Below are positions 1,793-17,992 of a DNA stretch of 56,365 nucleotides, piece after piece. This DNA is from Egicoccus sp. AB-alg2 (lineage in GTDB: Bacteria; Actinomycetota; Nitriliruptoria; Nitriliruptorales; Nitriliruptoraceae). The first letter of the stretch is position 1, and every line of letters begins with the position of its first letter. Below the pieces are notes generated by a model that searched no databases, was not told where the DNA came from, and saw nothing but the letters and a program-made list of their open reading frames with translations. A program made the position numbers and the translations under genes. The stretch is taken from positions 1 to 56,365 of the forward strand of contig NZ_JBGUAX010000015.1 of the NCBI RefSeq assembly GCF_041821065.1. Reading direction: 5' to 3'.

Positions 1793-2385
1793 GGCCGACC
1801 GACCTGCGCGACCGGGTGGCCGGCGACCTGGACGGTTGTCGGCTGCGCCCGGTCGACGCCACGCACGCCCTGCTCGAGACGGACGCCGGGCCGCTGTGCT
1901 GGTGGGAGGTTCGTCAGGAGCGTCGCCGCCTGCTGCAGTTGCAGGTCAGCGCCTTCCATCTCGACGGTCCGGCGACCACGGCCGACGTGCGGGTGACGTT
2001 CCGCCACACCGGCAACGTCCGCCGCACCGGCCTGCGCGCCAGCGTGAAGGGGCGTGACCAGCTCGTCGGCGTCTCGTTGCGCGACCAGCTGCTCGCGGAC
2101 GGCGAGCTGCAGGCGGCCAGTCTGCCGCTCGACTTCACCCGGTTCACCGTCGAACCCCTTCGGGGCCGGTGGCGCGCGACCCTCGAGCTGATGGGCGGCT
2201 CGTACGTGCGCACGACCTTCCCGCCCAGCGGCAGCTACGTGCGCCTGGCCGCCGACCAGACCGCCGCCCTGCTGGCTACCGTCCGCGTCCTGCACCGCCG
2301 GCTGCCGGTCGCGCCCGAGACGTTGCGCCCGGACCCCTCGCCGGCGAGCGACCTTTCCGACCACCTGCCCCGGAGAACCGTGTGA
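1789..2385 (+). CDS. Hypothetical protein (DUF3156-like?)
   Basis: A 198-residue soluble protein that I do not recognise firmly. It is rich in Arg, Leu and Asp, lacks membrane segments, and has a central region of predicted beta strands (residues about 60-150) with a Trp-Trp-Glu motif near residue 38. Such proteins next to APC permeases and aldehyde dehydrogenases are sometimes called DUF3156, but I cannot confirm that here. It overlaps the permease by ATGA and the next gene by GTGA, so the three genes are translationally coupled and probably work together. Confidence 0.65.
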   Translation: MRPTDLRDRVAGDLDGCRLRPVDATHALLETDAGPLCWWEVRQERRRLLQLQVSAFHLDGPATTADVRVTFRHTGNVRRTGLRASVKGRDQLVGVSLRDQLLADGELQAASLPLDFTRFTVEPLRGRWRATLELMGGSYVRTTFPPSGSYVRLAADQTAALLATVRVLHRRLPVAPETLRPDPSPASDLSDHLPRRTV

Positions 2386-3873
2386 CCGCTGCGACCACCG
2401 ACTGGCACGAGCTCGCGACCCGCACCACGCTGCGCAGCCGGGCGGTGATCGACGGCGCGCTCCACGACGCGGTCAGCGGGGCGACCTTCCCGGCGGTCAG
2501 CCCTCGCGACGGGCGCGTCCTGGCCGAGGTCGCCGCCTGCCAGGCGCAGGACGTCGACCGGGCGGTCGTCGCCGCACGCGCCGCCTTCGACGACGGCCGC
2601 TGGTCCCGTGCGCGGCCCTCGCACCGCCGGCAGGTCCTGCTGCGGCTCGCCGCCCTCGTCGAGCAGCACGCCGACGAGCTCGCTCTCACCATCTCGCTGG
2701 AGATGGGCAAGCCGATCAGTGACGCCCGGGCCATCGAGGTACCCGCGCTGGTCAAGACCCTCACCTGGTACGCCGAACTGGCCGACAAGTTGCTCGACGA
2801 GCTGCCGCAGACCGGCCCGGACGAGCTCGCGATGATCACCCCGCGAACCCGTCGGCGTCGTCGGGGCCATCGTGCCGTGGAACTTCCCGCTCACCATGGC
2901 CGGTTGGAAGCTGGGGCCCGCCCTGGCGGTCGGCAACTCGGTCGTGCTCAAGCCCGCCGAGCAGTCCCCGCTGTCGGCCCTTCGGCTGGGGGAGCTGGCG
3001 CTCGAGGCGGGCCTGCCCGACGGCGTGCTCAACGTGGTTCCCGGGCTCGGCCCCGACGCCGGACAGGCACTGGGTCGCCACGACGACGTCGACGTGCTCG
3101 CGTTCACCGGCTCGGGCGAGGTGGGCCGGCACCTGTTGCGCTACGCCGCCGACTCCAACCTCAAGCGGGTCTACCTCGAGCTCGGCGGCAAGACCCCCAA
3201 CGTCGTGTTCGCCGACGCCCCGGACCTCGCGGCCGCGGCCGCCACCGCCGCCTGGGGCATCACGTTCAACCAGGGCGAGATGTGCACCGCGGCCTCGCGG
3301 CTGCTGGTGCAGCGCGACGTGCACGACGAGTTCGTGCAGCAGGTCCTGGACGCCATCACCGCCCGGCGGGTGGGTGACCCGCTCGACGAGGCGACCCAGA
3401 TCGGCCCGGTCGTCGACGACACGCAGTTGCGCCGGGTGCTCGACTACGTCGACGTCGGTCGCGACGAGGGTGCCCGGTTGCGGCTCGGCGGCGCCCGGAC
3501 GCTGGAGGACACCGGCGGCACCTTCGTCGAGCCGACGGTGTTCACCGACGTGCGTCCCGACATGCGCATCGCCCAGGAGGAGATCTTCGGGCCGGTCCTC
3601 AGCGTGCTGCCCTTCGACGACGTCGACGACGCCGTCCGCCTCGCCAACGGCACGGTCTACGGGTTGGCCGCTTCCGTCTGGACCCGGGACCTGGCCACCG
3701 CGCACCGCGCCGCCCGCGCCATCCGGGCCGGGACCGTCTGGGTCAACTGCTTCGAGGAGGGTGACCTCAGCGTCCCCTTCGGCGGGATGAAGCAGTCGGG
3801 GACGGGCCGCGACAAGTCGCTGCACGCCATCGACAAGTTCGTCGACCTGAAGACGACCTGGATCGCCCTGTGA
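2382..3873 (+). pseudogene. PuuC-like aldehyde dehydrogenase, frameshifted
   Basis: A NAD(P)-dependent aldehyde dehydrogenase split by one extra C in the run CCCC at 2839-2842. The first part (GTG 2382) encodes the N-terminal 152 residues. The second frame resumes exactly at the conserved PWNFPLTMAGWK segment (2872 on) and runs to the TGA at 3873. Joined, it gives 496 residues, the normal length for gamma-glutamyl-gamma-aminobutyraldehyde dehydrogenase-type enzymes. The catalytic Glu (LELGGKTP, about 266) and Cys (NQGEMCTA, about 301) are intact. Preservation of everything after the break suggests either a very recent mutation or a sequencing error. The start overlaps the previous stop. Confidence 0.85.
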
Positions 3874-4364
3874 GCGCTCGCGGTCACCGGCCCGGGTTCG
3901 GCGTCCGCCCGGTGTCCCGTCCCCGGCCGGCGGCGCGTTCGGGCCGGCGCCACGGGTCGGGCCTCGGCGTGGCTGAGCGCCGCTCGCCCGCGGTGGCTGC
4001 GCTGGTCGGTCTGCTCCTCGTGCAGGCCGCTGCCGCCGTGGGCTTCGCCGTGTTCGTGACCTTCGCCGTCCTGCGGGAGTGGGGCACCGCCGCGGCGCCC
4101 GACCCCTCGGCGGTGGGCGTGCTGAGCGTCGGCGCCACCATGCTCCTCGGCGTGGTGGCCCTGGCCCTGGTCTGCGCCGGGGGGCTGTGGCGCGGGCGAC
4201 ACTGGGCGGGGACCATCACCGGGCTGCTGCAGGCGGTGCTGCTGGTGGGGGCCGGCGTTGGCCTGCTGTCGCTGGGTTGGCAACCGGCGTTGGGGCTCGT
4301 CGCGGCGGCCGGCGTCCTCGGGCTGCTGCTGTTGGCCGGTCGCCGCCGCGAAGTTCCCACCTGA
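3870..4364 (+). CDS. Small membrane protein of unknown function
   Basis: A protein of 164 residues if GTG 3870 is used, which overlaps the aldehyde dehydrogenase stop. The first 33 residues are Arg/Gly/Pro-rich. Four hydrophobic helices follow (about residues 40-68, 78-105, 113-132 and 135-156), then a basic tail. GTG 3969, just before the first helix, is an equally reasonable start. No family was recognised. The end-to-start overlap puts it in the permease operon. Confidence 0.6.
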   Translation: MSARGHRPGFGVRPVSRPRPAARSGRRHGSGLGVAERRSPAVAALVGLLLVQAAAAVGFAVFVTFAVLREWGTAAAPDPSAVGVLSVGATMLLGVVALALVCAGGLWRGRHWAGTITGLLQAVLLVGAGVGLLSLGWQPALGLVAAAGVLGLLLLAGRRREVPT

Positions 4365-4440
4365 CCCGCCCGTTCGGTCGCCGCGGGGAGGACACGAAAG
4401 CCGGTTGACTCGCTGACTGCCGTCCCGGGAGGCATCCGGC

Positions 4441-5004
4441 ATGAGCGCAGCAACGCGGCTCGAACGCAGCCGCCACGTCCTGCAGGCCGAGCACGCGGAG
4501 CTGCGGGTCGAGCAGGGCGTCGTCACGATCACGAAGCAGGTCGTGACCCGCCAGGAGCCGGTGGTCACCCACGTTGAGTTGGCGCGCATCCGCGGCGCCG
4601 ACCTGCGCAAGCCCACGCGTGGGCAACCCGGCTGGCTCCACGTCTCCGCCGTGGGTGGCACGACCAGCCCGCCGTCAGAGCTCGCCGCGGCCAGCGACCC
4701 CTACACGGTGCCCGTCACGATGCGCACGCTGGGCACCGCCCGGCGGTTCGTGCGCATGGTCACCGAGCACGTCCGCGACCGCGGCCTTCCCACCGAGCGC
4801 CCGGGCGACGCCCCCCGCTCCTCCAGCGTGCTGGTGACGCCGGCCGCGGCCCGCACGGCACCGTCGCCACCGCCGGCCACGACGACGAGCGTCCCGCCCC
4901 CGCCTCCACCCGCCGTCGAGGGCGGCCGGCCGCCGCTGCGTTCGTCCACGCCACCTCCGTCGGTGCCGCCGCCCGGCGCGACGGCGCCGTCAGTCCCCGG
5001 GTAG
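4441..5004 (+). CDS. Hypothetical protein with a PH-like N-terminal region and a Pro-rich tail
   Basis: 187 residues. The first 110 alternate strands and end in a helix (RRFVRMVTEHV), resembling the small pleckstrin-like folds of actinobacterial DUF4429/bPH proteins, though this is a fold impression only. The last 70 residues are Pro/Ser/Thr/Ala-rich and look disordered, with runs of up to seven prolines. GGGAGG lies 8 nt before the ATG. The gene converges on, and overlaps by 15 bp, the Lrp gene on the other strand. Confidence 0.6.
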   Translation: MSAATRLERSRHVLQAEHAELRVEQGVVTITKQVVTRQEPVVTHVELARIRGADLRKPTRGQPGWLHVSAVGGTTSPPSELAAASDPYTVPVTMRTLGTARRFVRMVTEHVRDRGLPTERPGDAPRSSSVLVTPAAARTAPSPPPATTTSVPPPPPPAVEGGRPPLRSSTPPPSVPPPGATAPSVPG

Positions 5005-5460
5005 CAGGAACGGCCGGCGAACCACCTCGTCCAGCACGAGGGAGGTCAGCGTGCCGCGGGCCCCGGTGAGACGGCGGATCTCTTCGAGCAGGAAACCGCG
5101 CAACTCCTCGAAGTCGGCGACGCGCACCATCAGCAGCACGTCGGCCTCGCCGGTCATGAGGGCGGCGTACTCGACGTGCGGGAGTGCCAGCAGGCCGGCA
5201 CGGACCGTCTCCCAGTCGAGCGTCGTGCCGGGGCCGGCGGAGAGCAGGACGACGGCCGCGACGCCCAGCCCGAGCCTGCGGCTGTCGACGACCGGCGCGA
5301 AGCCCCGCACGACACCGGCCTCGCGCAGCCGCTCCAGGCGTTGGTGCACGGCGGACCGCGACAGGTGCAGCCGCTCGGCCAACGCCGTGACCGAGGCGCG
5401 TCCGTCGTCGCGCAGCAGCGCGAGCAGCTCGAGATCCACGTCATCGGCCTGGAACGACAC
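4990..5460 (-). CDS. Lrp/AsnC-family transcriptional regulator
   Basis: A 156-residue DNA-binding regulator. A winged helix-turn-helix occupies residues 6-55 (LLRDDGRASVTALAERLHLS, then RSAVHQRLERL). An AsnC/RAM ligand-binding domain follows at about 65-150, with the usual acidic loop MTGEADVLLMV. Members sense amino acids and often control adjacent amino acid catabolic genes. It reads away from the decarboxylase gene across a 146-bp shared region that holds a palindrome at 5516-5533. That decarboxylase is its most likely target. GTG start. Confidence 0.88.
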   Translation of the reverse strand: MSFQADDVDLELLALLRDDGRASVTALAERLHLSRSAVHQRLERLREAGVVRGFAPVVDSRRLGLGVAAVVLLSAGPGTTLDWETVRAGLLALPHVEYAALMTGEADVLLMVRVADFEELRGFLLEEIRRLTGARGTLTSLVLDEVVRRPFLLPGD

Positions 5461-5515
5461 TCGTTCGAATCCCCGGTCGCGTGCGAGACAGGATGCTCAC
5501 GATAACCGCATTCGC

Positions 5516-5533
5516 CGCGCGATCTGTCGCGCG
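5516..5533. promoter_or_regulatory. Inverted repeat between lrp-type gene and decarboxylase
   Basis: CGCGCGA (5516-5522) and TCGCGCG (5527-5533) form a perfect 7-bp inverted repeat with a 4-nt spacer in the divergent gap. A -10-like TAGGCT lies at 5570-5575, upstream of the decarboxylase. The position suits an Lrp/AsnC operator, although the GC-rich arms could arise by chance in this genome. Confidence 0.4.
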
Positions 5534-5606
5534 CGTCGTTCGGTCAGGTGACGACGTGCGCGCACTGTCTAGGCTCGTGCGGTATCGCCGCACGCGAGGT
5601 GAACCC

Positions 5607-7049
5607 GTGCCCGAGGCGTCCTCCGCCGCCGACGAGCCCGCCTATGGTCGCGGCCTGCCGCTGGACCCGGATCCGGCGCAGGCCGAGGCGCTGCTCACGC
5701 GCGCCAGCACGCTCGTCGCCGCACTCTTCGACGGCGTCGGTGACCGGCCGGTCGCCGGGACGCCCACCGATCCCGCGTTCGTGGCCGGGCTGCTGGCCGA
5801 CCGTCCTGGCGAAGCTCAGCCGATCGAGGCCGCGCTGGCCACGCTGATGGAGGCCATCGCCCAGGGCCACGAGAGCCGCACGGGCGGCCACCTCGCCTAC
5901 ATCCCCGGCAGCGGGCTGCTGACCGCCGCGATCGGGGAGTTGTTGGCCAGCGCCGGCAACCGCTACACCGGCCTGCACGCGCCCTCGCCGGGGGCGGTGG
6001 CGCTGGAAGTCGGGGTGCTGCGCTGGCTGTGCGAGTTGTTCGGCATGCCCGAGGGCGCCCAGGCCGTGCTGCTCTCCGGCGGGTCGATGGCCAACCTGAC
6101 CGCGCTGGTCGCCGCCCGCGAACGTCACGCGCCGGGCCGGCCGCAGCTGGCGACCGTGTACGTCGGCGAGCAGGCCCACGCGTCGGTGCGCAAGGCGGCC
6201 CGCACGATCGGGATCCTGCCCGAGCACGTGCGTGTGTGCCCGTCCGGTGACGGTCTGCGCCTCGACGTGGAGACCGTCCGGGTGATGGTCAAGCAGGACC
6301 GCGCCGACGGGCTGGTCCCGACCGCGATCGTGGCGGCCGCCGGCACCACGAACTTCGGCGCCGTCGACTGCCTCGGACGTCTGGCCGACCTGGCCGCCGA
6401 CCTCGGCGTGTGGCTGCACGTCGACGGCGCCTACGGCGGGTTCTTCCGACTCACCGAGCGGGGACGGGCGCGGCTGGCGGGCATCGAGCGGGCAGACTCG
6501 ATCACCCTCGACCCGCACAAGTCGCTGTTCCTGCCGTTCGGCACCGGGGCCGTGGTCGTCCGCGACCGGCGCGCGCTCGTCGACGCCTTCGGTGAGGAAG
6601 CCGACTACCTGCGCGACCTGCCCGACGCCGACCAGCTCCCGGACCTGGCCGAGCTGACCCCGGAGCTGACCCGCGAGTGGCGCGGCGCGAAGCTGTGGCT
6701 GCCGCTGAAGCTCCACGGGCTGGCACCGTTCGTCGAGGCACTGGACGCCGACCTCGACCTGGCGGCGTGGGCACACGACGAGCTGGCGGCCATGCCGGGC
6801 GTGACCACGTGCGGGCCGCCGGACCTGTCCATCGTCGGCTTCCGGGTGCCCGGCGACGACGCCGCCCAGGACGCGGCCCTGGCCCACCTCAACGCCGAGG
6901 GACGGGTGCGCCTGTCCAGTACCCATCTGGACGGGCGGGTCGTGCTGCGGCTGGCGGTTCTCTCGCACCGCACGCGGCGGCACCACGTGCAGTACGTGCT
7001 GGATCGGCTGCGCGACTGGCTCGAGCGGCCGACGACCGGGACGACCTGA
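5607..7049 (+). CDS. PLP-dependent group II amino acid decarboxylase
   Basis: A 480-residue pyridoxal-phosphate enzyme of the aromatic L-amino acid/glutamate decarboxylase fold. It should convert an amino acid to the amine plus CO2 in the cytoplasm. Visible cofactor residues are Lys305 in DPHKSL (Schiff base), Asp273 in HVDGAYGG (pyridine nitrogen) and His191 in GEQAHASV (ring stacking). The closest impression is the tyrosine/DOPA/aromatic decarboxylases, but substrate cannot be read from sequence. I chose GTG 5607 because GAGGTG sits 5 nt upstream; the longer frame would run into the promoter. Probably controlled by the divergent Lrp-type regulator. Confidence 0.85.
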   Translation: MPEASSAADEPAYGRGLPLDPDPAQAEALLTRASTLVAALFDGVGDRPVAGTPTDPAFVAGLLADRPGEAQPIEAALATLMEAIAQGHESRTGGHLAYIPGSGLLTAAIGELLASAGNRYTGLHAPSPGAVALEVGVLRWLCELFGMPEGAQAVLLSGGSMANLTALVAARERHAPGRPQLATVYVGEQAHASVRKAARTIGILPEHVRVCPSGDGLRLDVETVRVMVKQDRADGLVPTAIVAAAGTTNFGAVDCLGRLADLAADLGVWLHVDGAYGGFFRLTERGRARLAGIERADSITLDPHKSLFLPFGTGAVVVRDRRALVDAFGEEADYLRDLPDADQLPDLAELTPELTREWRGAKLWLPLKLHGLAPFVEALDADLDLAAWAHDELAAMPGVTTCGPPDLSIVGFRVPGDDAAQDAALAHLNAEGRVRLSSTHLDGRVVLRLAVLSHRTRRHHVQYVLDRLRDWLERPTTGTT

Positions 7050-7071
7050 CGCCCTGGTCCGCCGCCGATGT

Positions 7072-7782
7072 TCAGACGCCGGCGACCTCGGCCAGGAAGC
7101 CGTCGACGAGCGTCGCCACGTCGCGTTCGCAGCGCTCGCGTTCCGCGGCGGCGATCGCCAGCAGCGTGTCCAGGTCGGCGCCCGTGGCGGCTTGCAGGTC
7201 GGCGTGTGCCGCCGCGCCGCCCATCTCCAGCCAGCTGGCGACGATGTCGGCGTCGACCTCGGGGTGGAACTGCAGGCCGAGGTTGCGCCGCAGCCGGAAC
7301 GCCTGCGGACCGACCTCGTTGCGGGCGAGCTCCTCGCCGCCGTCGGGGACGGTGAACACGTCGTGGTGCCATTGCATCCACGGGCCCGGCGGGACCAACT
7401 GCGGGGCCTCGGTGCGCACGGAGGTGAAGCCGATCTCCGCCTGGTCGGCCGCCTTCACCTCGCCGCCGTGGGCCGCCGCCAGGGCCTGGCCGCCGAAGCA
7501 GATGCCCAGCACCGGGACCGCCTCGCGGTCGGCCTCGCGCAGCAGGTCGAGCTCCCGCTGGATCCAGGTCCCGACGGCGCGATGGTCGTAGACCGACCAG
7601 ATCGCGCCCAGCGGCACCAGCAGGTCGAACTCGCGGGCGCGCGGGAACGGGCCGTGGTAGGTCGCGTCGTGGATCGAGCCGCCGATCGGCAGCAGCTCGA
7701 GCTCGAACCCACGCTCGGCCAGCGCGCGGCCGACCAGCCCGGGCTGCGAGCCGGGATCGTGCTGGATGAACAACGCACGCAC
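7072..7782 (-). CDS. Class I glutamine amidotransferase-like (gamma-glutamyl hydrolase) protein
   Basis: 236 residues, a single class I glutaminase domain. The nucleophile elbow is GICFGGQ with Cys95, and the His-Glu pair is in QFHPEVD (His173, Glu175). With no synthetase domain attached, such stand-alone enzymes hydrolyse gamma-glutamyl amides (as PuuD does) or serve partner synthetases. Two genes away is a gamma-glutamylamide synthetase-like gene, so the pair could attach and remove a glutamyl group on an amine. That is inference. It converges with the decarboxylase and diverges from the P450 gene. Confidence 0.85.
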   Translation of the reverse strand: MRALFIQHDPGSQPGLVGRALAERGFELELLPIGGSIHDATYHGPFPRAREFDLLVPLGAIWSVYDHRAVGTWIQRELDLLREADREAVPVLGICFGGQALAAAHGGEVKAADQAEIGFTSVRTEAPQLVPPGPWMQWHHDVFTVPDGGEELARNEVGPQAFRLRRNLGLQFHPEVDADIVASWLEMGGAAAHADLQAATGADLDTLLAIAAAERERCERDVATLVDGFLAEVAGV

Positions 7783-7825
7783 GGGAGCGCTCCTCTCGCC
7801 GGTCGGACAGTCTAACCCGGCAACT

Positions 7826-7852
7826 GTTCGGACCCGAACGGTCTGCTACCGT
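7826..7852 (+). promoter_or_regulatory. Operator copy 1 and -10 of the P450 operon
   Basis: GTTCGGACCCGAAC (7826-7839) is a perfect palindrome with a 2-bp centre. A -10-like TACCGT follows at 7847-7852, so a bound protein would sit between -35 and -10. The same palindrome occurs twice at 16916-16990. This suggests that a repressor, perhaps TetR-type and not encoded in the window, controls all three transcripts. Confidence 0.65.
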
Positions 7853-7904
7853 CGCGGGTCGGGAGTTGGGTGCAGGCCGCAAGGCACTCGGGAGGAGACG
7901 CGCC

Positions 7905-9206
7905 GTGACGACGCCGACGCTGCAGACCACGACCGCGCAGGCGACCCCGCCCGGCGTCGCGCCGTTCCTCGGCGACCGCTGGCTCGACCTCACCGACCCG
8001 GACGTCTACCGCGCCGGCGTGCCGCACGGCACCTTCGACCGGCTGCGCCGCGAGGACCCGGTCAGCTGGTGGGAGGAGCGCGAGGGCAGCGGTTTCTGGT
8101 CCATCACCCGCTACCGCGACCTGGTCGACCTCAACCGCGACTTCAAGGCCTTCACCTCGTCCAAGGGCATCCGCCTCGAGGAGATGGACGAGGAGGAGCT
8201 CGAGGCGCGCAAGACCATGATGGAGCTCGACCCGCCCGAGCACACCCGGCTGCGCCGGCTCGTGCAGGGCGGCTTCACCCGCCGCATGGTCGCCAGCTAC
8301 GAGGGCGCCATCCGGGCGCTCGCGACCGAGCTGCTCGACGAGGTGCTGCCGCGCCGGCACTTCGACTTCACCGTCGACGTCGCCCGTCAGCTGCCGCTGC
8401 GCATGCTGGGGCGGCTGCTCGGCGCGCCCGAGGAGGACTACGACTGGCTCGTCGCCCACGGCGACGCCATGATCGGCAACACCGACCCGGAGTTCACCGC
8501 CCACGTCGTCGACCAGACCGACACCGAGGCGTTCCGGCTGATGCCGTTCCGCAGCCCCTCCGGCGTGGAGTTGTTCGAGTACGCCCAGCGGCTCGCCGAC
8601 GCCCGCCGCGCCGCGCCCGAGGACGACGTCGTCAGCCAGATGCTCGCGCCCACCATGGACGGCGAGCCGCTGACCGACCTGGAGTTCAACAACTTCTTCA
8701 CCCTGATGGTGGCCGCCGGCAACGACACCACCCGCTACTCGATGGCGGCCGGCCTGCTCGCCCTGCTCGACCATCCCGACCAGCTGCAGCTGCTGCAGGA
8801 ACGCCCCGAGCTGATGCCGACCGCGGTCGAGGAGATGCTGCGCTGGTCGTCGGTCACCATGCACTTCCGCCGCACCGCCACCCGCGACGTGGAGATCCAC
8901 GGCCGCACCATCAAGGCCGGCGACAAGGTCGTGCTCTGGTGGATCTCGGGCGACTTCGACGAGGCCCAGTTCCCCGACCCGTACCGGTTCGACGTCACCC
9001 GCGACCCCAACGAGCACCTCGCCTTCGGACGCGGTGGTCCCCATCGGTGCATCGGGGAGTGGTTGGCGCGCCTGGAGATTCGCGTCACCATGGAGGAGCT
9101 GCTGCCGCGGCTCGCGTCGGCGCGGGTGGCCGGACCGATCGAGCGGCTGCGCTCCAACTTCATCAGTGGGATCAAGCACCTGCCGCTGGAGGTCACGCTG
9201 CGCTAG
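7905..9206 (+). CDS. Cytochrome P450 (CYP125/CYP142-like)
   Basis: A 433-residue heme monooxygenase. The I-helix oxygen-activating motif AAGNDTTR, the K-helix EEMLR, and the heme-thiolate loop FGRGGPHRCIG (Cys382) are all present. The loop spacing and the tail ERLRSNFISGIKHLP closely match actinobacterial CYP125/CYP142-type enzymes, which oxidise steroid side chains. The gene context here suggests another substrate. No ferredoxin or reductase gene lies nearby, so electrons must come from elsewhere. GGAGGAG stands 7 nt before GTG 7905. First gene of an operon with the glutamine-synthetase-like and aldehyde dehydrogenase genes, under operator copy 1. Confidence 0.93.
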   Translation: MTTPTLQTTTAQATPPGVAPFLGDRWLDLTDPDVYRAGVPHGTFDRLRREDPVSWWEEREGSGFWSITRYRDLVDLNRDFKAFTSSKGIRLEEMDEEELEARKTMMELDPPEHTRLRRLVQGGFTRRMVASYEGAIRALATELLDEVLPRRHFDFTVDVARQLPLRMLGRLLGAPEEDYDWLVAHGDAMIGNTDPEFTAHVVDQTDTEAFRLMPFRSPSGVELFEYAQRLADARRAAPEDDVVSQMLAPTMDGEPLTDLEFNNFFTLMVAAGNDTTRYSMAAGLLALLDHPDQLQLLQERPELMPTAVEEMLRWSSVTMHFRRTATRDVEIHGRTIKAGDKVVLWWISGDFDEAQFPDPYRFDVTRDPNEHLAFGRGGPHRCIGEWLARLEIRVTMEELLPRLASARVAGPIERLRSNFISGIKHLPLEVTLR

Positions 9207-9276
9207 CCGGCGGGCAGGCGAACGGGACGAATGGCTCCGCGACCGGGGAGGGCCGCGGGGCAGGAGAGAGAGCCGC

Positions 9277-10560
9277 ATGGACACCTACGACCGGATCCGC
9301 GTGCTGTGGCCCGACCACCTGGGCCTGGCGCGCGGGAAGTACCTGCCGATCCGCTACGCCGACAAGGGCGCCTTCCACTGCATGGCCCTGTTCGCGCTCG
9401 GCTACGACCGGGAGATGACCCCCGCGCCCGGCACCCGCATGCTCGAGGGCCTGCCCGACCTGCACGCCACGTTCGAGCTCGACCAGGTCCGCAAGGGCTG
9501 GGAGCCCAACACCGGCGTCGCCGTCGCCGACATCTGGTTCCGTGGCGAGCCGGTCGCGATGTCCGCGCGCCACGCGCTTCGTCGCGCCATCGACGACTGG
9601 GAGGCGCTGGGCTACAAGGCCAAGGTCGGCATCGAGCTGGAGGCCTACATCCTGCAGCCCGATGGCGAGGGTGGCTGGACCCCGTGGGAGACCCCGGGCG
9701 GCTACGTCTATGGCACCGGCACGGCCGTCGACCCGATCGGGCTGCTCGACGAGATCATGCGCGAGGCCGCCGACGCCGACCTGCCGATCGAGTCGATCAA
9801 CTCCGAGTACGACATCCCGCAGTTCGAGTTGACGCTGCACTACGACGACGCCCTCAAGGCCTGCGACGAGGCCTTCCTGTTCAAGGTCCTCGCTCGCGAG
9901 ATCGCCACCCGTCACGGGCTGCTGCTGACCTTCATGGGCAAGCCGCTCGGCGACCGCGGCGGCTCCGGCCTGCACGTCAACGTCTCCTTCGAGGACGTCA
10001 ACGGCCACAACGCCCTCAACGACGAGACCGCCGAGGACGGCCTGTCCAAGCTCGCCCACCAGGCAATTGGTGGGCTCATCGAGCACCACCGCGGGATGAC
10101 CGCGCTGCTCGCCCCGACCGTCAACGCCTACAAGCGGCTGCGGCCGGGACAGCTGTCCGGCTACTGGAACAACTGGGGCTACGACCACCGCGGCACGACC
10201 GTGCGGATCTCACCCGAGCGCGGGGCCGGCCTGCGGCTCGAGCACCGCATGGCCGACGGCGCCGCGAACCTCCACCTCGCCGCCGCCACCGTGCTGCAGG
10301 CCGCCCGGCTCGGCGTCGAGCACGACCTGACCCCGCCACCGGCGGAGACCCAGGACTGCCTCGAGTCCACCGACGCGACCGAGCACTGCCCGGACTCCCT
10401 GCGTCTGGCCCTCGACGCGCTCGAGGAGGACACCGTGCTCACCGACGCGCTGGGCAAGGACCTCGTCGACCACTTCCTCGTCATCAAGCGGGCGGAATGG
10501 GACCGCTTCGCCGCCGCCGTCACCGACTGGGAACTGCGCGAGTACCTGCCTTTCCACTGA
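9277..10560 (+). CDS. Glutamine synthetase family gamma-glutamylamide ligase (PuuA/GlnA3-like)
   Basis: 427 residues with the complete glutamine synthetase catalytic domain. Visible are the glutamate/metal loops GIELEAY and SEYDIPQFEL, the nucleotide-binding GSGLHVNVS, the NAYKRLRPG loop, and a C-terminal HRMADGAANLHLA helix. Family members outside primary nitrogen assimilation join glutamate to amines such as putrescine, or to alkyl or aryl amines, using ATP. It lies 70 bp after the P450 gene, and GS-like genes also adjoin the P450 genes for cyclic amine degradation in mycobacteria. A role in amine activation or nitrogen removal is likely. The acceptor is unknown. AGGAG precedes ATG 9277. 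Confidence 0.87.
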   Translation: MDTYDRIRVLWPDHLGLARGKYLPIRYADKGAFHCMALFALGYDREMTPAPGTRMLEGLPDLHATFELDQVRKGWEPNTGVAVADIWFRGEPVAMSARHALRRAIDDWEALGYKAKVGIELEAYILQPDGEGGWTPWETPGGYVYGTGTAVDPIGLLDEIMREAADADLPIESINSEYDIPQFELTLHYDDALKACDEAFLFKVLAREIATRHGLLLTFMGKPLGDRGGSGLHVNVSFEDVNGHNALNDETAEDGLSKLAHQAIGGLIEHHRGMTALLAPTVNAYKRLRPGQLSGYWNNWGYDHRGTTVRISPERGAGLRLEHRMADGAANLHLAAATVLQAARLGVEHDLTPPPAETQDCLESTDATEHCPDSLRLALDALEEDTVLTDALGKDLVDHFLVIKRAEWDRFAAAVTDWELREYLPFH

Positions 10561-10565
10561 CTTCG

Positions 10566-10725
10566 ATCCTGGGTCCCCCGTCTCGTCGCTGCGCTCCTCG
10601 TTGTCCCCCAGGCAACCCGCGCGTGGCAGGCTCACCGGGGAACCCGTACCGAGCCACAACCCATCCTGGGTCCCCCGTCTCGTCGCTGCGCTCCTCGTGC
10701 CCCCACAGGCAACCCGCGCGTGGCA
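10566..10725. repeat. Two 63-bp intergenic direct repeats
   Basis: A unit starting ATCCTGGGTCCCCCG occurs at 10566-10628 and again at 10663-10725, nearly identical apart from a small change after the shared CTCCTCG. Each copy is followed by a related accgggg...aaccc segment. Copy 1 can fold through CCTGGG (10568-10573) and CCCAGG (10607-10612). The 216-bp gap has no gene. The structure resembles REP-type intergenic elements of high-GC actinobacteria. Confidence 0.7.
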
Positions 10726-10776
10726 ACCGACCGGGGCCGGGAACCCGAATCCGTACGTCGCACGTGGAGGAACGTC

Positions 10777-12240
10777 GTGAGTGAGCACCGGATCGAGGTC
10801 GCGGGCGTCGAGGTGGCGACGCAGCACTACATCGGCGGGCGCCGGGTCGGCAGCGCGTCCACCTTCGAGGTGCGCTCGCCGCTGGACTGGGACTGGAAGC
10901 TCGCCGACGTCGCCCGCGGGGACGCGTCCACCGCGCGCGATGCCGTCACCGCAGCGGAGGAAGCCTTCCCCGCGTGGGCCGCGCTGAGCGCCAAGGAACG
11001 GGCCGAGCACCTGCACCGCCTGGCCGACGTCATCGACGCCAACGTCGAACGCGTCGCACAGGTGGAGACCGTCGACATGGCGATGCGGTTGCAGAGCCTG
11101 CGCGAACGGCTGGTGCACCGCGGCGCGGAGAACTTCCGCAACTACGCCGACCTCGCGGCCGGCTACGAGGAGCGGGTCTGGTCGTCCAAGGGCACGGAGA
11201 ACCGCGTCATCCGCATGCCGGCCGGCCCGGCCGTGATCATCACGCCGTGGAACGCGCCGTGGATGCTCTCGACCTGGAAGATGGCCCCGGCGCTCGCGGC
11301 CGGCAACCCCGTGGTGCTGAAGCCGGCCGAGTGGTCACCGCTGTCGGCCTCGATCCTCGCCGACCTCGCCGACGAGGCCGGCATGCCGCCGGGTGTGCTG
11401 AACGTCGTGCAGGGCATCGGCGAGGAGGTCGGGGCCGCGCTGGTGGCCGACCCGCGGGTGCGGCGCATCTCGTTCACCGGTTCGCCGGAGGCCGCCCGCC
11501 ACATCGGGCGGGCCGCCGCGGAGAACATCGTGCCGTTCACCGCCGAGCTCGGTGGCAAGGGACCGCTGCTGGTCTTCGAGGACGCCGACCTCGACGCGGC
11601 CGCGAAGAAGGCCGCCTGGCAGTACGACGACTCCGGCCAGGTCTGCCTCGCCGGCACCCGACTGCTGGTACAGGACTCGATCCGTGAGGCGTTCCTGGAG
11701 CGGTTCCACGCCTACGTGGACACGCACGTGCTCGGTGACAGCCGCGCCGACGACACCACCATCACGCCGATGATCCACCCCGACCACCTCGCGCGGGTCG
11801 ACGGCTTCGTGCAGCGGGCCCGGGACAACGGTGACCGCGTCGTCCGCGGCGGCCGGGTCCGTCCCGACGGCGGCCTGTTCTACGAGCCCACGCTGGTCGA
11901 GCCCGCGTCCAACGACAGCGAGATCGTCCAGCGCGAGGTGTTCGGCCCCGTGCTGACCTTCCAGACCTTCGCCGACGAGGACGAGGGCGTGCGGCTGGCC
12001 AACTCCACCGACTACGGGCTGTCCGGCATCGTCTACACCGGCTCGCGCGAGCGTGCGGAGCGCGTGGGCCGCGCCGTCCGGGCCGGCACCGTGTGGGTCA
12101 ACACCTTCCTCGTCCGCGACCTCACCGCCCCGTTCGGCGGGTGCCGGATCTCCGGCATCGGTCGCGAGGGCGGTCACTTCGCGCTCGAGTTCCACGCCGA
12201 CCTGAAGACCCTGCAGATCCTCGACGGCTCGACGGGCTAG
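10777..12240 (+). CDS. Aldehyde dehydrogenase, HpaE/DmpC-like
   Basis: 487 residues, NAD(P)-dependent. The catalytic Cys290 is in SGQVCLAG and Glu257 in AELGGKG. The segment ITPWNAPWMLSTWKMAPALA, the IHPDHLARV stretch, and the end APFGGCRISGIGREGG followed by a HADLKT tail resemble 5-carboxymethyl-2-hydroxymuconate semialdehyde dehydrogenase (HpaE), the step after homoprotocatechuate ring cleavage. The HpcB-like dioxygenase at 17993 supports this. Other hydroxymuconate or betaine-type aldehydes remain possible. GTG 10777 has GGAGG 6 nt upstream. Its TAG shares the palindrome CTAG (12237-12240) with the stop of the convergent regulator gene. Confidence 0.85.
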   Translation: MSEHRIEVAGVEVATQHYIGGRRVGSASTFEVRSPLDWDWKLADVARGDASTARDAVTAAEEAFPAWAALSAKERAEHLHRLADVIDANVERVAQVETVDMAMRLQSLRERLVHRGAENFRNYADLAAGYEERVWSSKGTENRVIRMPAGPAVIITPWNAPWMLSTWKMAPALAAGNPVVLKPAEWSPLSASILADLADEAGMPPGVLNVVQGIGEEVGAALVADPRVRRISFTGSPEAARHIGRAAAENIVPFTAELGGKGPLLVFEDADLDAAAKKAAWQYDDSGQVCLAGTRLLVQDSIREAFLERFHAYVDTHVLGDSRADDTTITPMIHPDHLARVDGFVQRARDNGDRVVRGGRVRPDGGLFYEPTLVEPASNDSEIVQREVFGPVLTFQTFADEDEGVRLANSTDYGLSGIVYTGSRERAERVGRAVRAGTVWVNTFLVRDLTAPFGGCRISGIGREGGHFALEFHADLKTLQILDGSTG

Positions 12241-12803
12241 TCGCCGGTCGCCGCGTCCGAGGTGCCCCCCATGGGCCGTTCCCGCGGTGCGCCACGGCCC
12301 GGCATCCGGTGCAGGCCCCAGAACGCGCCGTACCAGCGACCATCGGGGTCCTCGCGGTCGATGAACTCCTCGACGACCTGCGTGATCCGGGCGTTGAACT
12401 CGGCCAACGAGGCGTCGTCGAGGTAGAGGTCGAACCGCGCGCCGCCGGCCAGCGCGTCCGGGCCGGCGGCGTACAGCTCCTCGCGGAAGGCCTCCAGCCC
12501 GGCGTCGTACCAGCCGGGCTCGTCGACGGCCGTGTGGGGGAACGACAGCCGCCAGGACTTGCCCGTCGACAGGTACGGCTTCTCCAGCGCCCCCTTCGCG
12601 CCCTTGCGCACCTGCTGGGCCGCCAGGAACCCGGTGTCGACCAGCACCCGGACGTGGTGCAGGACCGTGCCCGGATCCTTGCCGAGCTCGTCGGCCAACT
12701 CGCGGTTGGTGCGCGGCTGTCGGTTGCACAACCGCAGGATCCGCAGGCGCAGCGGATTGGCCAGGGCCCGTACCTCGTCGGGCGTCGCTTCGCGTCGCTC
12801 CAT
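12237..12803 (-). CDS. ArsR-like winged-helix transcriptional regulator
   Basis: 188 residues. Residues 5-75 form an ArsR/HTH_20-type winged helix (ALANPLRLRILRLC, then TNRELADELGKDPGTVLHHV). The remaining 110 residues, acidic and Trp-rich, resemble no ligand domain I know. There is no metal-binding Cys pair, so it is not a typical metal sensor. The ATG is preceded by TAGCCT with exactly 6 nt between, the geometry of a leaderless actinobacterial transcript. The 12-bp palindrome at 12834-12865 covers its upstream region and that of the divergent exporter, so autoregulation and exporter control are likely. Confidence 0.85.
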   Translation of the reverse strand: MERREATPDEVRALANPLRLRILRLCNRQPRTNRELADELGKDPGTVLHHVRVLVDTGFLAAQQVRKGAKGALEKPYLSTGKSWRLSFPHTAVDEPGWYDAGLEAFREELYAAGPDALAGGARFDLYLDDASLAEFNARITQVVEEFIDREDPDGRWYGAFWGLHRMPGRGAPRERPMGGTSDAATGD

Positions 12804-15243: not shown

Positions 15244-16036
15244 CGCCGTCCGCCTCCCGTCGGTCGGGTGACGCTAACGCGACCAGCAGGTCGGCGACGC
15301 CGTGCGGTCGGCCATGGTGGGTGCCGTGGGCCGCGCCGGGCAGCTCGACCAGGCGGGCGTCGGGGGTGATGGCGGCCAGTTCCTCGACCCAGCGCCGGCC
15401 GACCATCGGGTCGCGCTCGCCGCGGACGATCAGGACCGGGTGGCGCACCAGCGGCAGGCGTCGGTCCAACCGGTGGCGCAGCGCTGCTCGCACGTACGTG
15501 ATCGCGGCCAGGCGGTTGGTGAGCAGGCCGTCGGTGACGGCGGTGGCGACCAGCGAGGGGCGCTCACGGGTCGCGTCGAGCAGCAGCCGCCCGGCCTGCC
15601 GGAAGAACCCGTGCCGGTGGCGGTCCACCGTCGGGCCGATCAGCGCGACGTGCCCGACCAGCTCGGGATGGCGGATGGCGAGGTCGGTGACGACCTGGCA
15701 GCCCATCGAGTTGCCGACCACCGTGGTCGGGTGCCGGCCGGTCGTGCGCAGCCAGTCGGCGAGCACGTCGGCCAGCCCGGCGACGTCGGTCGGCACCTCG
15801 GTCGGCGGGCTGTGACCGATACCGGGCAGCTCCAACGCGACGGCGGGCAGACGGCCGTCGAGGGCGTTCAGGAGTGGTCGGAAGTACCTCGAGGTGGTGC
15901 CCGAGCCGTGCACGAGCACCAGCGGTCGGACGCCGGGCCGGGCCGCGTCCGCGGTCTCGCGACTGTGCAGCACCCGCCGGGGACCGCCTCGCGAGGCGTC
16001 GACGACGGTCCAGCGGCGGATCAGTGCGATGGTCAG
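15212..16036 (-). CDS. Alpha/beta hydrolase
   Basis: About 274 residues with a complete catalytic set: oxyanion HGSGTT, nucleophile GNSMGC, acid in RGERDPM and histidine in PGAAHGTHH. The conserved N-terminal IRRWTVVD begins just inside the preceding gene's stop. No ATG or GTG precedes it, so the start is uncertain: CTG 16036 (overlapping the previous TGA), CTG 16024, or a GTG at 15973 that would cut the first strand. In a ring-cleavage operon it could act on a meta-cleavage product or an ester. Substrate is unknown. Confidence 0.8.
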   Translation of the reverse strand: MTIALIRRWTVVDASRGGPRRVLHSRETADAARPGVRPLVLVHGSGTTSRYFRPLLNALDGRLPAVALELPGIGHSPPTEVPTDVAGLADVLADWLRTTGRHPTTVVGNSMGCQVVTDLAIRHPELVGHVALIGPTVDRHRHGFFRQAGRLLLDATRERPSLVATAVTDGLLTNRLAAITYVRAALRHRLDRRLPLVRHPVLIVRGERDPMVGRRWVEELAAITPDARLVELPGAAHGTHHGRPHGVADLLVALASPDRREADGDDQRGTAAGI

Positions 16037-16887
16037 CCCTTCCGTGGGGCGCGGATACCCCGGAACTCCCAGTCTCCCCCGAGCGCGGTCGAGCGCACCT
16101 CCTCGGACTCGGTCGGTTGGGCGCCCACCTCGTCGCGGATGGCCGTCGGGCCGGTGACGATGCGGTTGCGCAGCGTGCCCAGGCCCTCGACCTCGACCTC
16201 GACGACGTCGCCCGGCTGCACCGGTCGGGAGTTGGCGGGCGTTCCCGACAGCACGACGTCGCCGGGCTCGAGGGTGATGGTGCGGGCCAGATCGGCCACG
16301 AGGTAGGCCATGTCCCACTCCATCTCCGCGGTGTTGCCGTCCTGCTTGACCTCGCCGTTGACGAGGGTGCGGATGCGCATCCCGTCGCGCGGGTCCCAGG
16401 CGTCGGCGCTCACCATCCCCGGCCCCAGCGGACACAGCGTGTCGGAGCCCTTCACACGCAGCATCGAGCCGGCGTCGGTGTCGCGGAAGTCGTGCAGGCC
16501 GTAGTCGTTGGCCACCGTGTAGCCGGCGATGTGGTCCCAGGCCTGCGCCTGGGTGACGTTGCGGGTGTGCCGGCCGATGACGATGCCGATCTCGCCCTCG
16601 TAGTTGAGCCACTGGCAGCGCTCGGGACGCACCACGTCACCCTCGTGGCCGTTGAGCGCGGACACCGGCTTGTGGAAGTAGGTGGGCGCCGGCGGCAGGG
16701 TCGTGCCGAACTCCTCGACGCGTGAGCGGTAGTTGAGGTGCACGCACAGGATCTTGGACGGCAGGACCGGGGGCAGGTGCACGGCTTGCGCGACCGGGAC
16801 GCGACGGCCGTCGCCGGCGACCAACTCGTCGCCCTCGCGCACCACCGTCGTGGCCGCGCCCGCCAGCAGGATCCGCCGTGTCTCCAT
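16033..16887 (-). CDS. Fumarylacetoacetase-family (HpaG-like) isomerase/decarboxylase
   Basis: 284 residues. The C-terminal FAH-fold domain has metal ligands in YEGEIGIVIG and NDYGLHDFRD, the catalytic loop LRVKGSDTLCPLGP, and the closing GDVVLSGTPA followed by GDVVEVEVEGLG. It resembles the C-terminal half of HpaG, which decarboxylates and isomerises 5-oxopent-3-ene-1,2,5-tricarboxylate and 2-hydroxyhepta-2,4-dienedioate in homoprotocatechuate degradation. FAH-family substrates vary, so other 2-oxo acids are possible. ATG 16887 is preferred; GTG 16899 adds four residues. Transcribed from operator copy 2. Confidence 0.85.
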   Translation of the reverse strand: METRRILLAGAATTVVREGDELVAGDGRRVPVAQAVHLPPVLPSKILCVHLNYRSRVEEFGTTLPPAPTYFHKPVSALNGHEGDVVRPERCQWLNYEGEIGIVIGRHTRNVTQAQAWDHIAGYTVANDYGLHDFRDTDAGSMLRVKGSDTLCPLGPGMVSADAWDPRDGMRIRTLVNGEVKQDGNTAEMEWDMAYLVADLARTITLEPGDVVLSGTPANSRPVQPGDVVEVEVEGLGTLRNRIVTGPTAIRDEVGAQPTESEEVRSTALGGDWEFRGIRAPRKG

Positions 16888-16914
16888 GTTCCTCGCCACT
16901 CCCGTCGCTCGTGT

Positions 16915-16933
16915 CGTTCGGCTCCGAACGGTA
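16915..16933 (-). promoter_or_regulatory. Operator copy 2 with overlapping -10 for the HpaG-like operon
   Basis: CGTTCGGCTCCGAACG (16915-16930) is a perfect 16-bp palindrome. On the minus strand TACCGT (16933-16928) forms a -10 that runs into the palindrome. This is the same register as TATCGT at copy 3, which suggests repression by direct promoter occlusion. Confidence 0.65.
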
Positions 16934-16972
16934 GTCGGCCGTCGGGGGGTCGCGCCCGACCGCGCGTTCGTC

Positions 16973-16991
16973 TATCGTTCGGGACCGAACG
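16973..16991 (+). promoter_or_regulatory. Operator copy 3 with overlapping -10 for the dioxygenase operon
   Basis: CGTTCGGGACCGAACG (16976-16991) is a perfect 16-bp palindrome. TATCGT (16973-16978) is a -10 candidate overlapping its left arm. Copies 2 and 3 are 61 bp apart, about six helical turns, in the 150-bp divergent gap. Confidence 0.65.
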
Positions 16992-17051
16992 GTTGGCTCG
17001 GGCACGCGTGCCCTCGGCCGGCCGGAACCGCACGCGGGTGAGGGAGCACAC

Positions 17052-17852
17052 GTGGCCGAGTTGCAGGGATTCGTCTTTCCGCGCACGGCGACCGGGCGGT
17101 CGTCGATCCTGCCGGCGCCGCCCTGGCACTACAGCGGCGACCTGCTGACGATCGAGTACCGCACCGATCCGGAGCGGGTGATCGAACTGCTGCCCGACCC
17201 GATCGAACCCGCCGACGACCCCGGCGCGGTCGCGCTGGTGTGGGCGGACTGGCAGTCGTGCTCCGACACCTTCGACGAGCTGCTCGACCCGGTCCGGGCG
17301 CAGTACAAGGAGGTGTTCTTCGTCGTCCGCGGTCGCTACCAGGGCGAGCACGTCTCGCGCTGCGTCTACATCTGGGTCGACAAGGACTACGCGCTCGTGC
17401 GCGGGCACTACCAGGGCTATCCGAAGAAGCTCGGGTCCATCCACCTCACGCGGCCGGTCGCCTACGGCAAGGCCGGCCCCCGGCTGGAACCAGGCGGCCG
17501 CTTCGGCGCCACCCTGGCCGCCTACGACCGCCGGCTGGCCGAGGCGCGCTTCACCATCACCGGTACCGCGGACCAGGGCGGCTTCGTGAACAGCCACGCG
17601 ATGCTGCACACCCGGTTCCTGCCGGCCATCGAGGGCGCGCAGGCACCGCCGTCGTTGCACGAACTGGTCACGATGAAGACCGTGGACGTCGACGCCGGAC
17701 CGGTGTACGTGGGCGACGCGGACCTGACGCTGTTCGATGTGCCCGGCGAGGAGTTCGGGCGGCTCGCGCCGCGCGAGATGATCGGTGCGTACTACCGGCA
17801 GGTCGGGGCGACGTTCGTCGGCGGGACCACGGTCCACTCCTACGACGACTGA
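17052..17852 (+). CDS. Acetoacetate decarboxylase-like superfamily protein
   Basis: 266 residues of the acetoacetate decarboxylase (ADC) fold. The adjacent active-site lysines, of which one forms the Schiff base in true ADC, are kept as Lys125-Lys126 in GYPKKLGS. Many ADC-like proteins in catabolic clusters are not acetoacetate decarboxylases but act on other oxo acids. Position directly upstream of a homoprotocatechuate dioxygenase suggests processing of a ring-cleavage product. No hydratase (HpaH) or aldolase (HpaI) is present in the window. GTG start with AGGGAG upstream, first gene under operator copy 3. Confidence 0.8.
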   Translation: MAELQGFVFPRTATGRSSILPAPPWHYSGDLLTIEYRTDPERVIELLPDPIEPADDPGAVALVWADWQSCSDTFDELLDPVRAQYKEVFFVVRGRYQGEHVSRCVYIWVDKDYALVRGHYQGYPKKLGSIHLTRPVAYGKAGPRLEPGGRFGATLAAYDRRLAEARFTITGTADQGGFVNSHAMLHTRFLPAIEGAQAPPSLHELVTMKTVDVDAGPVYVGDADLTLFDVPGEEFGRLAPREMIGAYYRQVGATFVGGTTVHSYDD

Positions 17853-17858
17853 ACACCC

Positions 17859-17910
17859 GACGAGCCGGCCAGGACGAGCCGGCCAGGACGAGCCGGCCAC
17901 GACGAGCCGC
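17859..17910. repeat. 14-bp tandem repeat, 3.7 copies
   Basis: GACGAGCCGGCCAG repeats at 17859-17872 and 17873-17886, with a one-base variant at 17887-17900 and a partial copy at 17901-17910. It lies in the 140-bp gap between the ADC-like gene and the dioxygenase gene. GCCGGC within each unit is self-complementary, so the transcript could fold here. Confidence 0.75.
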
Positions 17911-17992
17911 TGACAGCGACCCAGCGACACGACCAGAGCAAGCCGCGGCGCCGGCAGGCCGGCGACCGTCACCGAGCAGGGAGGAGCAAGCC

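Follow-up and report, generated by a model that had tools for sequence, protein, structure and literature searches.

A bacterial gene cluster linking a cytochrome P450, a gamma-glutamyl amine ligase and ring-cleavage enzymes, with a probable role in aromatic amine catabolism

Introduction

In the aniline and 1-naphthylamine systems (AtdA, TdnQ and NpaA), a ligase resembling glutamine synthetase (GS), a protein resembling glutamine amidotransferases (GATase) and a Rieske dioxygenase lead to a catechol, which is then ring-cleaved. The Puu pathway (PuuA, PuuB, PuuC and PuuD) and the Streptomyces GlnA3 and GlnA4 systems share capping of the amine, oxidation of the capped aldehyde, gamma-glutamyl hydrolysis and a permease, the aldehyde being formed by amine oxidation. 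The homoprotocatechuate (Hpa/Hpc) pathway uses HpaD, HpaE and HpaG on a substrate with an acetate group and has the MarR regulator HpaR. In the mycobacterial degradation of morpholine and piperidine, a P450 is paired with a GS-like gene, and in the Pip/Mor cluster the P450 gene is followed by genes for a ferredoxin and a reductase.

Here we describe a locus of Egicoccus sp. AB-alg2 in which elements of these systems stand together. The window is the whole stretch of DNA analysed, 56,365 nucleotides of contig NZ_JBGUAX010000015.1. We consider it probable that a P450, a GS-like ligase and an HpaE-like dehydrogenase encoded there catalyze the entry steps of a conserved cluster for the catabolism of an aromatic amine; an arylethylamine is the most likely substrate, with tyramine as the first candidate and phenethylamine or dopamine after it.

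Results

Organization of the locus

The P450 (7905-9206), the ligase (9277-10560) and the dehydrogenase (ALDH2, 10777-12240) follow one another on the plus strand. Their open reading frames and their matches to PF00067, PF00120 (E 4e-83) and PF00171 bear out the position and common orientation given in an initial annotation of this DNA. The gaps between them are 70 bp and 216 bp, the latter containing a 63-bp sequence twice, and no terminator-like site was seen in either gap. Given the shared strand, the short gaps and the lack of a terminator-like site between the genes, the single operon asserted in the initial annotation is best called plausible. That annotation covered this trio only. The full cluster spans 329-21723 of the window, with its remaining genes at 329-7782 and 16033-21723, and includes a decarboxylase, a PuuC-like aldehyde dehydrogenase (ALDH), a GATase, an FAH protein, an acetoacetate-decarboxylase-fold protein (ADC), a ring-cleavage dioxygenase and a GABA-type transaminase. 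ArsR, MFS, PPK2 and alpha/beta hydrolase genes break up the operon parts within the window, which counts against the reading we favor.

The earlier remark that no ferredoxin or reductase is encoded nearby holds for the annotated genes in the first 22 kb of the window, a difference from the Pip/Mor cluster. Unlike the window, the loci of relatives do contain a ferredoxin, and in S. canus a ferredoxin and a ferredoxin reductase adjoin the GS gene. The genes annotated between 1 and 22 kb include no Rieske dioxygenase, nor is this enzyme a recurring neighbor family in the related loci. Whereas the AtdA, TdnQ and NpaA systems rely on that enzyme, the oxygenase here is a P450, and its partners suggest an arylethylamine substrate and a Puu-type finish.

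The ligase has lost the ammonia site

The ligase retains the metal and glutamate residues of the GS catalytic domain: the equivalents of Glu129, Glu131, Glu212, Glu220, His269, Arg321, Arg339, Arg344, Glu357 and Arg359, which form its metal, ATP and glutamate sites, are conserved across the 14 aligned homologues. Both ammonia-site residues, equivalent to Asp50 and Glu327, are lost. The homologues carry Phe, Tyr, Leu or Cys at the Asp50 position and Leu, Phe, Met or Ile at the Glu327 position. The same genome holds two ordinary GlnA-type copies besides the cluster ligase, and both keep the Asp and the Glu. The loss of these two residues, together with the two GlnA-type copies, led us to reject an ordinary glutamine synthetase. 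The same positions are likewise lost in the gamma-glutamyl ligase GlnA4 (PMC6529630) and in NpaA1-type ligases (PMC11335346). The score against the PuuA equivalog model NF045547 was 214.8 bits, below its cut-off of 650. By its residues the protein looks like a gamma-glutamyl-amine ligase of the GoaS, GlnA3 or GlnA4 type, in keeping with its first description as PuuA/GlnA3-like.

The P450 forms a group apart from CYP125 and CYP126

The P450, which is predicted to hydroxylate the ring of the gamma-glutamyl amine, has the heme motif FGRGGPHRCIG. Its best PDB match is CYP125MRCA, followed among the nearest solved structures by CYP126, CYP125 and CYP124. Sequence identity is 38.9% to CYP125A1 and 43.6% to CYP126A1. 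When the usual family threshold of about 40% identity was combined with grouping with CYP125, the protein fell outside that family: it groups with other GS-linked P450s, with CYP125 and CYP126 apart, at moderate support (90/66 to 90/78). The initial label of a CYP125/142-type P450 is approximate at best: the enzyme is neither a CYP125 nor a CYP142.

A ring-cleavage module that resembles the Hpa pathway

ALDH2 is an HpaE-like semialdehyde dehydrogenase. Its best NCBIfam model is HpaE (TIGR02299, 488.5 bits versus a cut-off of 638), its best solved chain is the HpaE structure 2d4e, and the GQxC motif is present in 68 of 68 homologues. An HpaG-C-like FAH protein, the predicted decarboxylase/isomerase, is encoded on the minus strand at 16033-16899 (TIGR02303, 212 bits, cut-off 276), and 68 of its 70 homologues have the EGE motif. 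The LigB-type, HpaD-like extradiol dioxygenase (17990-18868, plus strand) scores 127 bits against HpaD_Fe (TIGR02298, cut-off 316) and keeps the His motifs; its best solved chain is 8iq8, with 2-aminophenol 1,6-dioxygenases as the next solved relatives. No cluster protein reached the equivalog cut-offs for HpaE, HpaD or HpaG.

The ADC (17052-17852, plus strand, PF06314) is a predicted hydratase-aldolase releasing pyruvate. It matches MppR (4jm3, E 3e-60), 4zbo (6e-47) and 5upb (2e-25), its Schiff-base lysine aligns with Lys156 of MppR, and GxPK occurs in 63 of 64 homologues. With this lysine, and being closer to MppR and Sbi00515 than to true decarboxylases, it belongs to the MppR-type branch, although a different substrate is predicted here. 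The same branch includes the ADC-like proteins induced during phenol degradation in Saccharolobus, which have been proposed to act as aldolases in meta-cleavage (PMC7820114); the substrate predicted here differs from theirs as well.

In the window's genome (98% complete), profiles for HpaB (PF11794) and HpaH (TIGR02312) found no match, and matches to the HpaI-type aldolase profile PF03328 were general and not specific. The closest dioxygenase that is not GS-linked is that of Sphingobium TomTYG64, where it is part of a classical hpc operon; a hydratase and an aldolase are encoded in this operon, but no ADC. Unlike the Hpa/Hpc pathway, the locus has neither an HpaBC hydroxylase nor HpaH, and the ADC is predicted to take the hydratase and aldolase steps. 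The substrate here would carry a gamma-glutamyl-aminoethyl group in place of the acetate. The module works like the Hpa pathway and is not a member of it. The presence of HpaD-, HpaE- and HpaG-like genes in one cluster with the ligase and the P450 supports the masked route to a catechol that was proposed initially. The parallel drawn at the same time with mycobacterial cyclic-amine genes is weak, because the partner genes here belong to aromatic ring cleavage.

Genes for amine supply, uptake, regulation and finishing

At 329-1792 (plus strand) lies an APC-type permease matching NCBIfam amino acid transporter models, probably for amino acid or amine uptake. A DUF3156 gene follows it (1789-2385, plus strand, PF11354), as one also does in four Chloroflexota loci (L067, L068, L071 and L074). 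The next gene on this strand, ALDH1 (2382-3873, start approximate), is PuuC-like and predicted to oxidize gamma-glutamyl-4-aminobutanal. PuuC is its best NCBIfam model, at 430 bits on the C-terminal 333 residues of a partial frame versus a cut-off of 850. The frame is broken once near 2843 by an extra base in a C run, and relatives in three loci (L038, L039 and L058) have a long unbroken frame.

An Lrp/AsnC-type regulator (4990-5460, minus strand, PF13404 and PF01037) is divergent from a PLP group II decarboxylase (5481-7049, plus strand, start approximate at 5481 or 5607, PF00282), the predicted source of the amine. The latter belongs to the aromatic-amino-acid decarboxylase superfamily; its nearest solved chains are 4obu, DesA-type enzymes, a plant Trp decarboxylase and DOPA decarboxylases. 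On the minus strand at 7072-7782 is the class I GATase (PF00117), a predicted gamma-glutamyl amide hydrolase whose nucleophile motif GxCxGxQ is kept in 23 of 25 homologues. Downstream of the dioxygenase, NCBIfam models identify a GABA transaminase-like class III aminotransferase (19025-20299, plus strand) and ALDH3 (20299-21723, plus strand), possibly a succinate-semialdehyde dehydrogenase, which matches lactaldehyde, phosphonoacetaldehyde and succinate-semialdehyde dehydrogenase models, none above cut-off.

The end of contig C6 carries a PuuD-like gene (116.8 bits versus a cut-off of 266) and then an HpaR-like MarR gene. This order matches the region upstream of the permease in a related locus (L064), and C6 probably joins the window. 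Neither the PuuC nor the PuuD equivalog cut-off of the Puu pathway was reached. In S. canus, S. lunaelactis and Embleya, the cluster itself contains both PuuC-like and PuuD-like genes.

Conservation of the cluster

We examined 50 non-redundant loci around ligase homologues, drawn from several phyla and each flanked by 6 kb or more of sequence to either side. In 45 of them a P450 gene is found no more than about 10 kb from the GS homologue. Also linked are an ADC (43), a ring-cleavage dioxygenase (42), an HpaG-like FAH protein (41), an HpaE-like ALDH (38), a GATase or C26 gamma-glutamyl hydrolase (38), a permease (25) and a decarboxylase (16), the last missing from most Acidimicrobiia loci. Over 77 loci the P450 and GS identities correlate with r = 0.88, to which shared ancestry contributes. 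When the dioxygenase was searched against 72,556 plasmids, 6 records were found, 5 of them also with a GS homologue, and Streptomyces, Embleya and Novosphingobium have plasmids with near-complete gene sets. The linkage counts led us to reject chance neighbors, and the correlated identities and the plasmid records likewise speak against a chance linkage. The trio is part of a widely conserved bacterial gene cluster. Ruegeria TM1040, in which the P450, the GS and the GATase are present but no ring-cleavage gene lies within 10 kb, counts against our reading of it.

Some members replace one another. A LigB-type HpaD is present in 36 loci and a VOC-type HpaD relative in 6, never both together. An alpha/beta C-C hydrolase-like protein occurs in 5 loci, never alongside the HpaE-like ALDH and/or the FAH protein. 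These replacements fit the chemistry proposed below, in which either option would give the same next intermediate.

Discussion

From the observed gene set, linkage, replacements and residue losses we infer the following substrate, reactions and order of steps. The decarboxylase would convert an amino acid to its amine, probably tyramine, and the ligase would cap the amine with glutamate at the expense of ATP. Ring hydroxylation by the P450 would give a masked gamma-glutamyl catechol, which the LigB dioxygenase would open beside the side chain. The HpaE-like ALDH would then oxidize the semialdehyde, the FAH protein would decarboxylate and isomerize the product, and the ADC would add water and split off pyruvate, leaving gamma-glutamyl-4-aminobutanal. 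This compound is an intermediate of the Puu pathway; the route would therefore be finished by the PuuC-like ALDH, a PuuD-like or GATase hydrolase, the GABA transaminase and a semialdehyde dehydrogenase, ending at succinate. Whereas the aldehyde of the Puu, GlnA3 and GlnA4 systems comes from amine oxidation, here it would come from aromatic ring cleavage. The cap would stop the amine from cyclizing onto the ring-cleavage product. Besides the interrupting genes and Ruegeria TM1040, further points against this route are the subthreshold scores of the HpaD-, HpaE-, HpaG-, PuuC- and PuuD-like proteins, the lack of a decarboxylase in most Acidimicrobiia loci and the broken frame of ALDH1. More tentatively, we propose that this is a widespread route, in which a capped arylethylamine is turned into a P450-made masked catechol and cleaved while capped, to pyruvate and gamma-glutamyl-4-aminobutanal, so that the Hpa and the Puu/GABA routes are joined. 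No description of gamma-glutamyl-tyramine or gamma-glutamyl-dopamine catabolism with a GS, P450 or extradiol enzyme was found in the open-access literature, a scope that stops short of proof of novelty.

The cap might be removed sooner. Were a GATase or C26 hydrolase, present in 38 of the 50 loci, to take off the gamma-glutamyl group before ring cleavage, the ligase would serve hydroxylation or uptake only. The ring-cleavage products of free dopamine are expected to cyclize, and the PuuC-like and PuuD-like pairs in several clusters suggest that the cap is kept to the end; we regard early uncapping as unlikely. Its model would be the aniline-type systems, for which the role of the ligase is debated and in which a GS-like ligase, a GATase-like hydrolase and an oxygenase precede meta-cleavage of the free catechol (PMC11335346). 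Those systems also speak for a different aromatic amine under the same logic of glutamylation, P450 and ring cleavage, be it an aniline type with its nitrogen attached to the ring, an aminophenol, or a methoxylated or benzylic amine, since NpaA1 and AtdA1 act on anilines (PMC11335346). The kinship of the LigB protein to 2-aminophenol 1,6-dioxygenases, the many loci without a decarboxylase, and the second P450 and F420-type oxidoreductase of S. canus point the same way. However, a side chain of two carbons agrees with the recurring decarboxylase, PuuC, PuuD and GABA-transaminase partners, and the matches to HpaD, HpaE, HpaG and HpaR suggest a ring of the homoprotocatechuate type, so that we give this alternative about as little credence as early uncapping.

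Considerably less probable is an action of the P450 on a gamma-glutamyl amide that is not aromatic, or on a cyclic amine, by N-dealkylation or ring opening. The pairing known from mycobacterial morpholine and piperidine degradation counts for it, as does a more distant P450-ferredoxin-reductase-GS-C26 set without ring-cleavage genes on a Microbacterium plasmid, but the dioxygenase is linked in 42 of the 50 loci. The least credible reading makes the P450 a CYP125/124/142-type hydroxylase of steroids or lipids whose place beside the ligase is accidental, or takes the ligase for an ordinary glutamine synthetase. The nearest solved structures would suit such a P450; the low identity to CYP125A1 and the separate tree grouping disfavor it, its linkage to the ligase crosses phyla, and steroid genes are absent among the conserved neighbors. 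An ordinary glutamine synthetase is opposed by the lost ammonia site and the two GlnA-type copies elsewhere.

If the capped arylethylamine route is correct, many uncultured bacteria of soils, lakes and the sea would break down biogenic amines in a new way, with Acidimicrobiia, Nitriliruptoria, Chloroflexota and others among the carriers. The route would give a function to a whole P450 group that is now likely labeled CYP125-like, and roles to genes annotated generically or wrongly as glutamine synthetase family, acetoacetate decarboxylase family or catechol 1,2-dioxygenase. The plasmid-borne clusters of cultured strains make the pathway directly testable. The general principle at stake is that masking the amine while the aromatic ring is cleaved would keep the product from cyclizing.

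Gene organization in the window

The three genes of the core lie on the plus strand: a cytochrome P450 (7905-9206), a glutamine-synthetase-like (GS-like) ligase (9277-10560) and an HpaE-like aldehyde dehydrogenase (ALDH; 10777-12240), separated by gaps of 70 bp and 216 bp. No terminator-like or sigma-70-like sites were found in a search of positions 7700-12400. The initial annotation had assigned the three to one operon; their coordinates and common strand were borne out, while a single operon is plausible from the gene arrangement. Two 63-bp copies, 94% alike and 97 bp apart (10566-10725), lie in the 216-bp gap ahead of the ALDH gene, and a 24-base core of this repeat has no further occurrence in the genome beyond that gap.

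The three-gene core is part of a larger gene set. Upstream are a permease, a PuuC-like ALDH (2382-3873), an Lrp regulator, a decarboxylase and a class I glutamine amidotransferase (GATase), and downstream are an HpaG-like (FAH) protein, an acetoacetate-decarboxylase-fold (ADC) protein, a LigB-type HpaD-like dioxygenase (17990-18868), a GABA transaminase-like protein and a further ALDH. A single base within a run of C at about 2843 causes the one break in the frame of the PuuC-like ALDH; in same-genus relatives the frame is long and uninterrupted. Either sequencing introduced this break or the gene mutated recently. A secreted-looking protein at 22625-24358 has a possible fasciclin-like domain flanked by long tandem repeats rich in TD.

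In the 4.84-Mb, 98% complete assembly, the window is a contig taken from its first base, and the sequence before position 1 is missing. The end of another contig, C6 (L163:307-1652), has a strong PuuD-like hydrolase gene followed by an HpaR-like MarR gene, the same order as that upstream of the permease in a related locus, L064. Because of this shared order, C6 probably adjoins the first base of the window and supplies the missing upstream part of the cluster. Neither HpaB nor HpaH has a match in this 98% complete genome.

Linkage to the ligase in other genomes

Ligase homologues were sought in same-family genomes, the phylum, 84,980 named species genomes and plasmids, and their neighbours were then mapped. 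Neighbours were counted over 50 non-redundant loci in which the ligase gene is flanked on each side by 6 kb or more of sequence; this set, picked by ligase similarity, gauges linkage to the ligase and not cluster frequency. The families counted were a P450 (45 loci), an ADC-superfamily protein (43), a ring-cleavage dioxygenase (42), an FAH protein (41), an HpaE-like ALDH (38), a predicted gamma-glutamyl hydrolase of the C26 or class I GATase type (38), a MarR regulator (35), a permease (25) and a decarboxylase (16). The species-genome records bear the names of Acidimicrobiia, Nitriliruptoraceae, Anaerolineales, Thermoflexales, Deinococcales, Acidobacteria and SAR324; many are metagenome-assembled and individual ones may be misbinned, yet the pattern recurs. 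An F420-dependent luciferase-like oxidoreductase also recurs (e.g. L091:13389-14336 and L153:5674-6597), as does a second P450 in some clusters.

With the dioxygenase alone as query, 6 records matched among 72,556 plasmids, five of them already recovered with the ligase. The Novosphingobium sp. EMRT-2 plasmid encodes the dioxygenase (60% identity), P450 (50%), GS (50%), HpaE-like ALDH (72%), ADC (60%) and FAH (75%) proteins together with a 2Fe-2S ferredoxin. On the S. canus NBC_00633 plasmid there are GS, P450, ferredoxin, ferredoxin-reductase-like, ADC, ALDH, dioxygenase and FAH genes, a second P450 with ferredoxin, a permease, and PuuC-like and PuuD-like genes. The same enzyme set is found in the unannotated record of Embleya sp. 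NBC_00896; it is also present in S. lunaelactis, but with no P450 close by. In the sixth record, Sphingobium TomTYG64, the dioxygenase (43%) lies inside a classical hpc operon that also includes hpaE, an isomerase gene, hpcG (hydratase) and hpcH (aldolase) but has neither ADC nor GS. Together the plasmid records indicate that the dioxygenase branch is tied to homoprotocatechuate-type pathways and that ADC occupies the place of the hydratase and aldolase of the classical route. The Microbacterium sp. YJN-G plasmid pYJNG (L154) has a more distant set made up of a P450, a ferredoxin, a reductase, a GS-like protein, a C26 hydrolase and a GATase; no ring-cleavage genes occur in this set, which may belong to a different amine pathway.

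Affiliations of the ligase, P450 and ADC proteins

Asp50 and Glu327 bind ammonium in glutamine synthetase. Whereas the metal, ATP and glutamate residues of the ligase are conserved in the alignment, the positions matching Asp50 and Glu327 are occupied by hydrophobic residues or lost in 14 aligned cluster homologues; both residues are present in the two GlnA-type paralogues of the same genome. The cluster ligase resembles in this loss GlnA4, in which a nonpolar Phe replaces Glu327 (PMC6529630), and the NpaA1-type ligases, which attach glutamate to aromatic amines but not to ammonia (PMC11335346).

The best solved relative of the P450 is CYP125MRCA (52% identity), by its name a reconstructed ancestor; identities to CYP126A1 and CYP125A1 are 44% and 39%. 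The heme and I-helix motifs are conserved. In the tree, the GS-linked P450s group apart from CYP125 and CYP126; the deepest fork is moderately supported (90/66), and a core clade of 37 strongly so (100/99). The ADC protein was placed in the MppR/Sbi00515 branch, whose members are aldolases or aldolase-dehydratases. Aldolase activity of MppR has been described, and a role of ADC-like proteins in meta-cleavage suggested (PMC7820114).

Mutually exclusive replacements

In meta-cleavage, the aldehyde carbon is removed by hydrolysis or by oxidation and decarboxylation, both leading to the same 2-hydroxydienoate. As raw locus counts with kinship among loci ignored, a meta-cleavage-hydrolase/PcaD-like alpha/beta hydrolase was present with the HpaE-like ALDH and FAH absent in 5 loci, and no locus had this hydrolase alongside either; a VOC-type protein matching HpaD TIGR02295 stood in for the LigB dioxygenase in 6 loci (Chloroflexota, Deinococcota and an actinobacterial family, f15), and no locus had both. 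The hydrolase variant lacking ALDH and FAH was noted at L127, L128, L131, L132, L133 and L122, and an acyl-CoA-dehydrogenase-like gene adjoins it at L127.

Proposed pathway

The individual modules are all known already; in the literature covered, mostly open-access papers, we did not find a P450 ring hydroxylase combined with ring cleavage of a capped amine. The proposed route takes over the reactions of the Hpa pathway for a predicted substrate that bears a gamma-glutamyl-aminoethyl side chain where the classical one has acetate. We prefer an arylethylamine as substrate mainly for the stoichiometric fit of this route, taken together with a decarboxylase of the aromatic amino acid family. Ring cleavage would be followed by oxidation, decarboxylation, hydration and a retro-aldol step, giving pyruvate and gamma-glutamyl-4-aminobutanal. 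The latter is the substrate of PuuC, at which point the PuuC-like enzyme would take over, and such a product would make sense of the PuuC-like, PuuD-like and GABA transaminase-like genes of the cluster.
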